DNA from: Plasmodiophora brassicae
Lineage: Eukaryota; Endomyxa; Phytomyxea; Plasmodiophorida; Plasmodiophoridae
Length of the DNA: 64,000 bases
Direction: 5' to 3'
Assembly: GCA_039704465.1 (NCBI GenBank)
Contig: JASFAU010000003.1
Coordinates: 62,001-126,000, forward strand
The notes beneath the pieces are model-generated. The model ran no database searches. It worked only from the letters and a program-made list of their open reading frames with translations, and was not told where the DNA came from. The position numbers and the translations under genes were made by a program. Numbering within the stretch: the first letter of the stretch is position 1; every line of letters starts with the position of its first letter. Of this stretch, positions 5,339 to 53,459 are shown piece by piece.

Positions 5339-6357
5339 TTAGCCGTCGTCATCGGTGACCTCGTCGCTGAGCGTGTCGTCGTCCTCCGCGGCGTTCGACT
5401 GCCGGTCGAACTCGTCGTCGTCGTCCAGGGGCATGGCGTCGTCGTCCAGGTCGGACTGGTCGAAGTCGCTCAGCGTTTCCTGGTCGCTCCCGACGACGCT
5501 GCCGCTGGCGGACGGCGCTCTCCCGGGCTGGTCCGCGTCCCCCGAGGGCGCCGCGTTCGGGTCCAGTTTCTTTCGCGCTAGGCCGAGCAGCTGGGACAGG
5601 CGCGCATTGTCAGGAGACAGCTCCAGGGCGGCTTCGAACATTTCCGCTGCGTCCACGTATTGCTTCTTGGCACCGTACGCCAATCCCGTCAACGTCCTGG
5701 CTTGGACGGAATCCGACGATATGTCCAGAACCTGTGTTGGACGGTCAGGGGGGCAACGTTCCTAGGGGCAACCCTGAGCACCCCCATGCACCTTGGTACA
5801 CTCCGCTAGGCAGCCGTCAAAGTCGCCAGTCTCGTACAACGCCATGGCCAGGGTCATGAGGACGTCCTCGTCCGGGTCGTCACGCAGCAAAGCCATGGCC
5901 GATTTGCAATCATCCGAGGCCAGCACGGGTTTGCATACGCCGACGCGTCCCAGGGCGCGATTGGCGTACGCGTCCGCCAACGACGGGTCCAACAGGACGG
6001 CCTTGGCCCAGTCACGAAGAGCCAGATCAGGCCAGCCGCGCTCGGCATACACCACGCCTCGGTTGTTGTACAGCTTGGCATTGTCGGGATCCTTCCGGAT
6101 CCTGCGACGGACGTCAGCAAACAACGCCGATAAAAAGTGGTCCAAACACCTGACCGTTTCGTCAGCTCGTGCACGGATCGGTCAAAGTCGCCTTCCAGGA
6201 ACAGGCGCACGCTGCTATCTCGATCCTGACTAAACTCGGGAAACTTGCTGACACGGGATATGCCCAGGTGGCTAGACCGGGTTTGTGGGCCAATCAGCCT
6301 GTCGCCGTCCGACGGCCCATCCGACTTGCTGATGAACGACCGTATGTACTCCTGCAT
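5339..6357 (-). CDS. TPR-repeat protein with acidic tail
   Basis: Three exons (6357-6155, 6101-5792 and 5731-5339; introns 53 and 60 bp) give 301 residues. The middle exon holds clear tetratricopeptide repeats: DPDNAKLYNNRGVVYAERG, then DPSLADAYANRALGRVG, then ALYETGDFDGCLAEC. The last exon continues with AYGAKKQYVDAAEMFEAAL-x-LSPDNARL. The C-terminal about 70 residues are low-complexity and strongly acidic (many DDD/DDE runs). TPR units usually form a protein-binding superhelix, so a scaffold or co-chaperone role is reasonable but unproven. The N-terminal 55 residues have no recognisable domain. I cannot place it in a specific TPR family. It is adjacent to, but unrelated to, the QPPDG-repeat genes. 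Confidence 0.72.
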
Positions 6358-6400
6358 GGACTTACGATCATTAAGGCCAAGCGCCTACAGAAGCGTGTGA

Positions 6401-7648
6401 TTAGAATGAAACGGCGTCACGCTGCAAGTTGACAGCGTCGACCTTCCAGGTAGGGCAAGCACCACGATGCCATCCGAGACCGCAACCCTTAATGCGCCCA
6501 TCAGGTGGTTGAAGCGCACGGCATACTCTCGCCAGAGTCCCAGTGATGCCATGATCACTGCGATACTTGTCCACATACGTCTAACCAGGGCGCCGTTACA
6601 TGCAGCAGAACGCGACAGAGCACGGACGAGACCAGGTACCTTAACACCTTCACGGTTTGGCACGCCGAACGCCACCCAGCTATCGCACACGTTCATCCGA
6701 TGGAACGGTTCGCCGCATCCGATGACCCGCCCGTCCGGCGGCTGCGGCAGGTTGCACAGCTTTTCAGCATCCGACCTGGACTTGAACAGTTTGACCTTCG
6801 TGTCGCCTTTGTCCTCGCGAAGCTTGTTCAGAGCGTCCTGCCTCGACAGGATACCGTGCTCGGCCCACGACCCGCACACCCGGCCCTTGTGATGAGGAGC
6901 ACCACACCCGCGAAGCACGCCGTCCGGCGGCTGCACGAAGGTGCATGGCTTCCGGTTCGAATCCGGATGGTCCTTGTGCCAGTTCATCAGGAACTCGCGA
7001 ATCTCCGGGAACGTTGTGATTCCTCGGCCCTTCCAGGCGTCGCACACCTCGCCACGATGATGGCCTGACGAAGAGCATCCGCGAACAGCGCCGTCCGGAG
7101 GCTGCGGCACGATACATCGATCCCGGTCAGGGCGTTTACGAACCCTGACATTGTACGGTCAGAGCACATCGCAATGGGCGTCTTCGTGAGAAGTTAGACG
7201 ACCTGGGCTCGCTTTTGACAGTCTGCGCAGGGGTCTGCTTCTTCCATTCCAGAAGTTTCTGGCGCGCTTCCAGCAGCGTGAACACGCCCTGCGCCAGCCA
7301 GCTGGCACAGACTTGGTCGGGGTGTGCCGCCTGGCCACAGCCTTTGCGCAGCGCTCCTGTTTGCCCGGCCACGGGCGGTTGCCGCATGGAGCATAGTCGG
7401 TTTCCCGACAGCGCTGCTGTCGACGCTAAGCCAGCGTTGACTTGCTTGAGGTACGGCTGTATCTGGTCCGCATGCGTCAATCCCTGGGTACGCGTCAGCA
7501 CTGATCTGGCAAGTACGACACCCGCATTTGCCCGTACTTGTTGGGCCCACGCTAGACAGCAGACTGGATAGTGCTCAGCCTGGCCGCAGCCCAGCCATCG
7601 GCCATCGGGTGGCTGTGGCGCCCGACAGGCAACGGCACTGGATCGCAC
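6401..7648 (-). CDS. Six-copy QPPDG/GCG Cys-His repeat protein
   Basis: Four exons (7648-7538, 7483-7203, 7144-6640, 6565-6401; introns 54, 58 and 74 bp) give 353 residues in one frame. The protein is almost wholly made of six repeats of about 40-60 residues, starting near residues 8, 68, 141, 198, 261 and 314. The core is C-x3-QPPDG-x3-GCG-x2/3-H-x3/5-C-x2-W, followed by a short helix-like segment. Repeat 2 has a degenerate QPPVAG core with an insertion. Three Cys and one His recur in fixed order, suggesting a small metal-binding module; that is inference. Introns 1 and 3 each complete a repeat when removed, which supports the model. No signal peptide or membrane segment is seen. I do not recognise the domain. 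Confidence 0.75.
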
Positions 7649-7684
7649 CTGAGGCCAGCAGGCAGCAACGGCAGCACGTTTAGC

Positions 7685-8451
7685 TCAGAACAGGGTGGCC
7701 AGGCACATGACGCGCGTTACGGAATCGAGCAGGTTCGGGTCGCTGACCACCATGCTGGCCACGGACATGGACGCTGCCTGCAACGTGCTCGGTGCCAGGA
7801 TCGACGCCGTCTGCTGGTAGAACTGGAGCCGGGCAACGTCCACGTTCTGACAATCCCCCGGGTGCCACATGTTAGTCAAGCCGGAAGGTTTCTGACAAGC
7901 GCAATATCGAGAATGACGTGAAACACAATCGATAAACTCGGTCAACCAGACGAAGACGAAAGAAATGGACCTGGTCGGGTGGGGGTGCCAAATACGTAGC
8001 TGGATAGACGCGTTGTGCTTGGACGACTTGCACGTCTGGGGCAGCATTGTGGTCCACGTTGTCAGGTTGCGGGGCAGAGTCGGTTTCAATCGGGGCCGCC
8101 TCCGCAACAGGCCGTCGGGGATCGGGCATCAACACCGGCACCGGGGCGACGTTGTCGACGTCTTCCATAACGGCTTCGCAGACAGGCGGTTCGGCGTGCA
8201 ACACTGACTGAATATAATCGTTCAACTAGCACATATCAGCCATTCGTACGCGGGCGGGATTTTTCGATTCGACGTACTTGGGCGACCGTGGCAACGCCCA
8301 GGTTCATCCACGGGTGGCAGACGGTCAGCGCGTCGTGTTCCTGGCCACACCCGATGACGGCGCCGTCGGGAGGCTGCGGCACCGTGCACGACGACGCGCC
8401 AGTCGCCGCCCCCGCAACGACCTCGCCCGGGCCAGCACCGGACGCCATCAT
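7685..8451 (-). CDS. Single-copy QPPDG-repeat protein, paralogue of its neighbour
   Basis: Three exons (8451-8278, 8225-7971, 7891-7685; introns 52 and 79 bp) give 211 residues. Residues 22-60 carry one copy of the repeat (C-x3-QPPDG-x3-GCG-x2-H-x5-C-x2-W), and removing intron 1 joins it to LNDYIQSVL, the same helix-like tail seen in the neighbouring gene's repeats (for example IQPYLKQVN). The rest is proline/acid-rich, then a C-terminal part (VARLQFYQQTASILA and beyond) with no recognised domain. The gene ends 36 bp before the start of the six-copy gene and is on the same strand, so the two are probably a tandem duplicate. An in-frame ATG at 8616 would extend it into a 36-bp direct repeat. 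The second intron could use an alternative donor near 8006. Confidence 0.6.
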
Positions 8452-8524
8452 CGACCACTTCCGCCCTACGCACAATCTGCCCCACGGCCTTCGCCAGCCG
8501 TCTGGACTGTGGACGAAAACTGTG

Positions 8525-8596
8525 CAGTCCGTGCGAGGCGCGGATTCGCGTTTCAGTGTACAGTCCGCAACAGGCGCGGATTCGCGTTTCAGGGCC
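8525..8596. repeat. 36-bp direct repeat, two copies, in a divergent promoter
   Basis: Two near-identical 36-bp units (8525-8560 and 8561-8596), each with CAGTCCG at the left and GCGCGGATTCGCGTTTCAG at the right. They lie between the divergent starts at 8451 (minus) and 8631 (plus) and could affect both promoters. Confidence 0.7.
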
Positions 8597-8630: not shown

Positions 8631-11061
8631 ATGGCGTCGGGAGCGCTGCCGTGCGTGGCCGTCGTCGCCGGCGACCACGACGATGTCGTCAGCGTCGGGG
8701 CCATCCTCGTCCCCGCTTCGATGTTCGCGAATGGCAAGATGGCGCTGGGCGCCGCCGTCGAGTTCACGACGGAGGCCGGGCGGCGCATGCTGGGCCCGGC
8801 GCATCCGATCCCGTTGTCGTCGACCACGTCGCCTGTTGACGAAGTGATCGTACTGTCGTCGGTTCCGAGCCCCGGGCATCACTGCCTGCCTGGACGGAAT
8901 GCCCAGCGCATGCCTGGCGTGTTGCGCGCCCTGCCTCGCTTGTCGGCCGCGTTCCACGTGGATGTCGTCATTCCGGACCATGAGTTCGAGTTGCTTTCCG
9001 CCTCCATTCTTCGATCTGCGCTTCACCGCCAGGATGTTGTTGTTGAACCTGGCTCCACGTTGTCGCTGGTGTTGTGGCGTGGTCGTCCTCCGGTCCCCTG
9101 CCGCATCCAGTCGTGCAAACCGTCCGCGTCGCCTGTAATTCTCACTTCATCGACGAATATTGTGCTTTGCCGAGAGCCGCCTGTTATGCATCCGATCCAG
9201 ACCGGCGCCGTGTTTGAAAGAGTTGAGGCGCTTGGTGACGCCTTCCCCCGTTTGGTGTCGTTGTTGTCTCTGGACCCTCGTTGGCGTCCGCGTGGCGTCA
9301 TCGTGCATGGGCCGAGTGGTTCCGGCAAGACATTGCTGGTTGATTCTGCGCTGTGCCAATTGGGCCAGACACAAGTTGCTCGGCTTGATGGCAGAGCTCT
9401 GTCTGCCATGGCAACGCCTGGCGCTGCCGAACGCGCGCTGGTGTCTGTATTCGATCATGTGGGCCTTGACGGCGTGATCGTCATCGATGCCATCGATGCG
9501 ATCGGTGGTCGGGACCGGGACCGCCGTAGACTGTTAGGGCAGCTTCTGGTTTGTATGGATCAAGGCGCTACGGCCTCTGGCTCTATTGTAATTGGCGTGG
9601 CGGCCAACGTCGACTCGCTCGATCTGGCACTGAGGCGGCCGGGGCGATTTGACTACGAGATCGGCGTTACTGCTGGAGACGTTGCCCAACGATCTGCCGT
9701 CCTGTCATTGTATTTGCCGAAGGTTGGCGCCGATGCGATCGAGATGTGTGCATCGAAGGCGGTGGGCTACACTGGATCCGATCTGCGACAGGTTGCCGAC
9801 TTGTGCGCGCTGTCACATGCGTCTCTGGTACTTATATGCGGTTTGTAGGTCGCCCAGGAGGCATCGCTTGTGGCGCTAAGTGACGGACGGACGCAAGTGT
9901 GTAATGACGACCTTAACGGCGCACTGCATCGGATCCCAGCGTCGTCATCTCGGAAGGAGTTTGCCGTGCCAGTTAAGCCTGCGAAGGTCTTGTAATGATT
10001 TCATGCTCGCGCCGACAGCAGCGTTGATCATGGCAATGTAGTGGGATGATATTGGCGGCCTTGATCGTGTAAAGACGACACTGAGGACAATCATCGAGGG
10101 CCCCATGCTGTATCCTGAGGTATATTCCCATATGGGCATCGATCGTCCTCGTGGCATCCTTCTTTACGGTAGGTCGAGTAGATTGTGTACCAGGCCCGTT
10201 CTAACGTTTTCTAGGGCCACCTGGATGCGCCAAGACGACCCTAGCCAGAGCGCTGGTTGGAAGTACATCAGACCAGTGGTCCATTCTGCTGCTGGACCCG
10301 GCTCGCGTGTATTCCGCGTTTGTCGGTGAAGCGGAACGATGCATCCGGGATGTGTTTCGTCGTGCTCGTGATAATGCCCCGTGCATGATCATTCTGGACG
10401 AAATTGACGCCATTGTCACTAATCGCGCTTCAGCTTCTGATGGCAACAATGTCCAACGTCGGGTCAGTTTGTTCGTGCTCTTTGTTGCCATGGCACGTTA
10501 CTCAGGTTTCAACTGTAGGTGCTGTCTACTCTGCTGAATGAGATGGATGGGGTCGGAAGCGCATCACAGATCCTAGTCGTAGCCACAACAAACCGCCCCA
10601 AGATGCTTGACGACGCCCTGCTTCGTCCCGGTCGGTTCGACCAAATCGTCTTCGTAACCGTCGATCCCAATTTGGGTGCTGCTGGCATCTGATTACCTGG
10701 ATATCTCCAGGTTCCCGAACCTGATGCACTCGGGCGACGCGCTATTGTCGAAGTGCATACTCGAGGCATGCCGCTCGCTCCTGACGTTGACCTCGAGGCC
10801 GTATCGTGTGAATTACTCAAGGGGTACACGGGTGCCGAGATCGAGAGTGTTTGCCGTGAAGCTGCGATCAACGCCCTTCGACGAGACCTCGACAGCAAAT
10901 CAGTCGTGCGTTCACATTCGCCACTGTCTGTTACTGTTTTACTCACTGCGCCATGTTAGCAAATGGGCGACCTCCATGCGGCCATATCGCGAGTTCATCC
11001 GGGCCTCAGTGAAACACTCCGGCAGTCGTACTCGGAATTCCACAAGTCTCGTGCCCGTTGA
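8631..11061 (+). CDS. AFG2A: AFG2/SPATA5-type double AAA ATPase
   Basis: A CDC48-related unfoldase with an N-terminal domain and two AAA modules; the AFG2 branch releases shuttling factors from pre-60S ribosomes. Module 1 has Walker A GPSGSGKT (9309-9332) but its Walker B reads [10 protein letters not shown], with Ala (codon 9489-9491) where the catalytic Glu belongs. Module 2, split by introns, has Walker A PPGCAKTT restored across a splice site at about 10215, Walker [11 protein letters not shown], the [17 protein letters not shown] segment, and [15 protein letters not shown]. At least six introns are needed; five have clean boundaries. The one near 9829-9860 is not resolved. The last exon ends with [28 protein letters not shown], as in AFG2-type tails. 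Confidence 0.85.
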
Positions 11062-26880: not shown

Positions 26881-27147
26881 GACGTTTTGACGAGTTCGTT
26901 TTCCGCCCTTTGACGTCCCCCGTCCCCCCGTGGCAGTGCGCCATCGCTGGTCAGCCCCAGTCCCGACCGTTGCAGCTCGTGTGCAGCGCCAGTGGGCTGC
27001 CAACGACGGGACGCCTTTTGAGGAGTTCGCTTTCCCCCTTTGACCTGCCCCGTCCCCCCTCGGCCCTTCCCCGTGACAGTGCGCCAGCCCCAGTCCCGAC
27101 CGTTGCAGCTCGTGTGCAGCGCCAGTGGGCTGTCAACGACGGGACGA
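26881..27147. repeat. Tandem duplication of about 130 bp in the XYLB upstream region
   Basis: Two imperfect copies (about 26881-27009 and 27010-27147), each with TTTGAnGAGTTCG at the left, a CCCCTTTGAC-type stretch, then CCCCAGTCCCGACCGTTGC and CAGCGCCAGTGGGCTG. The second copy lacks a 12-bp internal piece and has a C-rich insertion. The region lies between XYLB and a plus-strand kinase-like gene and carries the TGCAGCTC core seen in other intergenic repeats. Confidence 0.75.
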
Positions 27148-34799: not shown

Positions 34800-34951
34800 C
34801 ACCGCAACCCGTCCCGGAGGCATTCTGACGGGGGACTGCAACCCGTCCCGAAGGCATTCTGACGGGGGACTGCAACTCGTCCCGAAACAATTCTGACGGG
34901 GGACTGCAACCCGTCCCGAAGGCATTCTGACAGGGGACTGCAACCCGATTC
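34800..34951. repeat. 34-bp minisatellite, about 4.4 copies
   Basis: Head-to-tail units of 34 bp with the core CTGCAACCCGTCCCGAAGGC followed by ATTCTGACGGGGGA. Copies differ at a few positions (GGAGGC, CTCG, AAACAATTC, ACAGG). It fills the upstream region of the minus-strand TBC1D19 gene and the space before the next plus-strand gene. No unique spacers separate the units, so this is not a CRISPR-type array. Confidence 0.9.
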
Positions 34952-53322: not shown

Positions 53323-53433
53323 AAAAAAGTGTTGACCTCCTCAGTTTGATGCGTGTCATCCTTGCGCAGGGGCCATGCTAATCTTCTCTGTTATGTTCCT
53401 AATTTTTTGGGTGGTACATCCCCGAAGGGAGAC
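53323..53433 (-). ncRNA. U6 spliceosomal RNA
   Basis: The minus strand holds the universal U6 core: a 5' hairpin GTCTCCCTTCGGGGA, then GGAACATAACAGAGAAGATT containing the ACAGAGA box, AGCATGGCCCCTGCGCAAGG (AGC triad and U4-pairing region), and GATGACACGCA (internal stem). It ends in a T run (53323-53328) that would stop RNA polymerase III. The 5' end by comparison is at about 53433. The length of about 105 nt matches other U6 genes. It supplies the catalytic centre of the spliceosome that removes the short introns seen throughout this window. Confidence 0.97.
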
Positions 53434-53459
53434 CAATCGGGTCATGGGGCGAAATCGGA

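Follow-up and report, generated by a model that had tools for sequence, protein, structure and literature searches.

A single gene of Plasmodiophora brassicae, annotated but uncharacterised, encodes seven copies of a cysteine- and histidine-containing repeat together with a tetratricopeptide repeat (TPR) domain and an acidic tail. The seven repeats are real, related coding modules, beyond what chance would give. On sequence comparison the repeat is a module without a described family in the libraries searched, all of the searches being of limited reach. Judging from composition and architecture, the product is most likely an adaptor. We give a probability of about 0.55 to the reading in which it acts inside the cell, with the seven modules, each stabilised by zinc, serving as a multivalent arm next to the TPR domain.

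Gene structure

The gene spans positions 5339..8451 on the minus strand of the window, by which the whole analysed stretch of 64,000 nucleotides is meant, and it has 10 exons and 9 introns (52–124 nt) with a product of 840 amino acids. Six of the introns were placed from the window sequence alone, and they gave a single frame across all seven repeats. It was found that a public P. brassicae protein, P0001, named 'Tetratricopeptide repeat' (840 aa), is letter for letter the product of the ten exons read from 8451 to 5339 on the minus strand. The introns of P0001 are those six and three more. Strand-specific RNA-seq is named among the evidence for the published P. brassicae annotations (PMC6823432, PMC4471660), and an average intron length of 60 bp is given for the species (PMC4471660).

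The original prediction had divided the repeats between two paralogues 36 bp apart, because a stop in the 72-nt intron 7720-7649 was read as coding. This intron (7649..7720, minus strand, GTAACG...CTCAG in the exon model) contains the in-frame TGA at 7687-7685. If the intron were retained, that stop would end the first part, and two neighbouring paralogues would result, one with a single repeat and the other with six. Such a pair is scarcely credible: the frames are joined by the GT-AG intron, no ATG stands between the stop and the first repeat of the supposed second gene in that gene's own frame, and P0001 is joined in a public annotation with RNA-seq among its evidence. In the same way, the TAA at 6403-6401, taken earlier as the end of the seventh repeat, lies inside intron 6442-6385. 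The gene continues beyond the left edge of the region first described, down to 5339; the last repeat crosses an intron and is followed by the TPR domain and the acidic tail, both of which were missing from the earlier description. The introns starting at 7970, 7202, 6442 and 6154 on the minus strand, four of the nine in this gene, begin with GTC and not with GTA or GTG.

Architecture of the protein

The order of parts in P0001 is the first repeat (R1), an acidic linker (net charge -10) some 120 residues long, R2 to R7, the TPR domain and the acidic tail, the seven modules occupying residues 20-553. The TPR domain (approximately residues 591-760; 5582..6204, minus strand, with introns 6154-6102 and 5791-5732 inside) matches Pfam TPR_2 at 1.2e-15, with 56.7 bits against a cut-off of 27, and TPR_11 with 55.3 bits against 26.8. 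Eight Pfam TPR families besides TPR_2 match as well, most of them above their cut-offs, and solved TPR chains of 57 distinct sequences match the C-terminal domain at E up to 1e-4. The likeness to TPR proteins such as O-GlcNAc transferase, STI1 and engineered TPRs is limited to this domain; none of these matches spans the seven-repeat part, and they are generic, with no partner named. The public name and the precomputed Pfam list of P0001 hold TPR only, and the repeats carry no domain name there. The acidic tail comprises residues 766-840 (5342..5566, minus strand, the span taken from the exons) and has a net charge of -24 by charge count. No strongly hydrophobic stretch was seen near the start (maximum of 0.76 over the 19-residue segments whose start falls within the first 40 residues), and P0001 would thus be an intracellular protein.

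The repeat module

The seven-copy alignment gives the consensus C-x12-C-x4-H-x4-C-x2-W-x3-G followed by a helix; QPPDG stands between the first and the second cysteine, and the copies are 51 to 59 amino acids long as aligned. All seven lie on the minus strand: R1 at 8184..8394, R2 at 7427..7633, R3 at 7223..7399, R4 at 6958..7122, R5 at 6790..6951, R6 at 6548..6762 and R7 at 6316..6529. It had been proposed that intron removal completes individual repeats, and this is true of R1 (intron 8277-8226), R2 (7537-7484), R6 (6639-6581) and R7 (6442-6385).

The motif of QPPDG, GCG, His, Cys and Trp that was first put forward stands as to its three cysteines and its tryptophan, but QPPDG is exact and the histidine is in place in six of the seven copies. 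The residues invariant in all seven are the three cysteines, QPP, the glycine of the DG turn, the glycine preceding the second cysteine, the tryptophan and the glycine four residues past it. R3 departs from the motif with QPPVAGQTG, and its five extra residues make the spacing between the first two cysteines x17 in place of the x12 of the other six. The histidine stands five residues past the second cysteine in 6/7 and is shifted by one residue, to four, in R1. The spacing C-x4-H-x4-C is exact in R2, R3, R5 and R6, while R1, R4 and R7 deviate.

When each repeat was omitted in turn and a profile of the other six was searched against P0001 with Z set to 6000, the omitted repeat was recovered in all seven cases. 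The i-E values were 3.9e-14 for R1, 1.1e-11 for R2, 2.9e-9 for R3 (the weakest), 4.2e-15 for R4, 1.1e-13 for R5, 6.4e-16 for R6 (the strongest) and 5.8e-11 for R7. In the six-frame version of this analysis one further piece, 5857-6384, came below E 0.01; it is the second half of R7 on the next exon, and it vanishes once R7 is omitted from the profile. The seven copies of the original prediction are thus borne out, each being recovered by a profile of the others.

The copies differ strongly from each other. Over the 21 repeat pairs the identity is 27–41% at the amino acid level and 38–50% at the nucleotide level, and identical residues are often written with different codons (15 of 19 in R3 versus R4, 7 of 18 in R4 versus R5). 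Because of this low identity and the different codons, the repeats look like old duplications, as far as sequence comparison within a single array of one genome points. A recent expansion is therefore not supported, and neither, by this one array, is the suggestion that the array expands and contracts. Exon shuffling was considered and rejected: the four introns that interrupt repeats have phase 0 in common, but they lie 10, 3, 12 and 1 residues past the tryptophan and thus share no position.

Search for relatives

No convincing match to the repeats was found in Pfam, NCBIfam, PHROGs or the PDB sequences, in agreement with the earlier remark that the pattern fits no family known to its author. 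It should be noted here that part of these library and PDB searches used the repeats as first cut (R1, R2, R6 and R7 unspliced or with missing ends) and part used the spliced forms. The first-cut repeats gave several weak matches, every one confined to a single member or fragment, which were put down to chance. These were sig_GCG_CRPN_rpt (0.0023), MXAN_5453 (0.021) and NadA (0.12), then Pfam YhiY (0.032) and TRS130_4HB (0.27), and also Prok-E2_C (0.14) and YhiY again (0.045). The best PDB sequence match, Caskin-1 with E 0.32 (first-cut) and 0.33 (spliced), was judged in the same way.

A search of approximately 5.8 billion proteins, a set which may not include proteins of Spongospora or Polymyxa, returned nothing but the gene's own products, P0001 and P0002, the latter (83 aa) being the R3 reading frame of the window. 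Only proteins of similar length that have five-residue words in common with the query can be found in this way; 7999 (those with the most such words), 6459 and 323 candidates were scored. A peptide pattern was matched by 15 and 23 stretches of prokaryote and viral contigs, none of them a relative, and there were no exact matches to the motif pattern. Divergent copies would escape these contig searches because the patterns are exact. As regards the literature, the string 'CX12CX4HX4C' was not found in the portions of text available to the search, and 'QPPDG' occurred there only in papers on other subjects.

The genome of P. brassicae isolate e3 is described as an assembly of twenty nuclear contigs and one mitochondrial contig, 25.1 Mbp together (PMC6823432). 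In the organism's own genome as searched here (25.34 Mb, 21 contigs), protein queries found no repeat copy outside the P0001 gene. All places found with the repeat queries lay inside that gene (5/5 for R4-R6, 3/3 for R3, 6/6 for R7, 6/6 for R1 and 7/7 for R2). The R4-R6 query recovers the four other repeats and the R3 query two of the other six. Since the R1, R2 and R7 queries miss R3, a genome copy as distant as R3 could be overlooked. With the whole of P0001 as query 21 places were obtained, 9 in its own gene and 12 elsewhere, and all 12 fall on residues 587-752, which is the TPR part; the best other TPR matches in the genome are 48% identical over 63-64 residues.

Metal binding and fold

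Each repeat is probably stabilised by zinc through its three cysteines and one histidine, a reading compatible with the conservation. A putative metal site is supported by the fact that the cysteines are invariant in 7/7 and the histidine is placed in 6/7, despite an identity of only 27–41%. The AlphaFold2 model of R5, made from the seven-row alignment, has a mean pLDDT of 76.8 and a pTM of 0.57, with helices at 32-36 and 42-56, and two of the five models of this repeat have a mean pLDDT near 64. The one-repeat model (pLDDT 77, of moderate confidence) gave no convincing match to a solved fold, the sole Foldseek match being a pilin with E 6.5. The full-length model of P0001, for which no alignment was used, has a mean pLDDT of 37.7 and is unusable. 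Beyond this single moderate-confidence model of R5, the fold of the module would be a predicted one.

By spacing, the zinc knuckle (zf-CCHC) is the nearest known thing to the module as its sequence reads. The zinc knuckle has the pattern C-x2-C-x4-H-x4-C, and small zinc domains are known for fast divergence. Both have three cysteines and one histidine, and the second half, C-x4-H-x4-C, is shared by four of the seven repeats. However, the first cysteine of the module stands 12 residues upstream (17 in R3) and not 2, and two helices follow in the R5 model. None of the seven repeats has the spacing C-x2-C-x4-H-x4-C, and the zf-CCHC profile of Pfam gave no match with first-cut repeats (E up to 10) or with P0001 (E up to 1). 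Because of the displaced first ligand and the missing profile match, the module is not filed under the zinc knuckle.

The most serious competing explanation is that the module belongs to a known zinc-finger class, zinc knuckle or treble clef, but has diverged so far, with its first ligand cysteine lying further upstream, that profiles no longer recognise it; the function would be the same. We hold this to be a real but less probable alternative. It gains from the spacing of the second half, which is that of the zinc knuckle's second part, and from the weakness of a profile built from seven copies of one gene. It loses in that no zinc-finger class is found among the Pfam matches (E up to 10 with first-cut repeats, four of them without their spliced second half, or E up to 1 with spliced P0001), in the first spacing of x12 in six repeats and x17 in R3, and in the single pilin match of the Foldseek search. 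A repeat without metal, in which the conserved cysteines serve a structural or redox purpose by disulphide or thiol chemistry, would suit the differing ligand spacing among repeats. Nevertheless three cysteines cannot all be paired in disulphides inside one repeat, the histidine is conserved alongside them in 6/7 and the start of the protein has no signal-like hydrophobic character, and we regard this explanation as improbable.

Proposed role of P0001

According to the adaptor reading, each module would have short strands about its QPPDG turn, followed by two helices, the first short and the second long; the conserved tryptophan would open the helical part, and the three cysteines and the histidine would hold zinc. 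The modules together would make a multivalent binding arm, of which R3-R7 could bind either RNA or the acidic surface of a protein, while the C-terminal TPR domain would bind a protein partner. The net charges are -5 for R1, 0 for R2, +5 for R3, +1 for R4, +3 for R5, +1 for R6 and +6 for R7, so that R3-R7 sum to +16. The array is not uniformly basic, since R1 is acidic and R2 neutral, and this speaks against the adaptor reading, as do the exact C-x4-H-x4-C spacing in only 4/7, the five extra residues of R3, the two repeat models near pLDDT 64 and the unusable full-length model.

A further-reaching and more doubtful proposal is that the module is a small domain of a new kind, metal-binding and with its own fold, born in the P. 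brassicae lineage and multiplied to seven copies within a single gene, where it would give a TPR adaptor a multivalent recognition arm specific to this lineage. What is gained here, for a repeated module that is nameless in the libraries searched, is a clear consensus together with a full and corrected gene model. If it binds zinc and has a fold of its own, it would be an instance of a small domain that arose and multiplied within a single gene of an obligate plant parasite. The finding by itself makes no statement on disease.

Other features of the window

Reading frames with AAA ATPase domains lie at 8631-10537 on the plus strand, with matches of 7e-19 at 8631-9848 and 3.5e-18 at 10205-10537; they are divergent from the P0001 gene and begin approximately 180 bp from its start. 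In the gap between the divergent genes, at 8520-8595, a stretch with GGCGCGGATTCGCGTTTCAG occurring twice, about 35 bp apart, was seen by eye and is not listed by Tandem Repeats Finder. That program reported tandem arrays at 34804-34947 (34-bp unit, 4.2 copies) and 26885-27146 (133-bp unit, 2 copies). A U6 spliceosomal RNA, a eukaryotic mark, was found at 53325-53434 on the minus strand with 83.1 bits.
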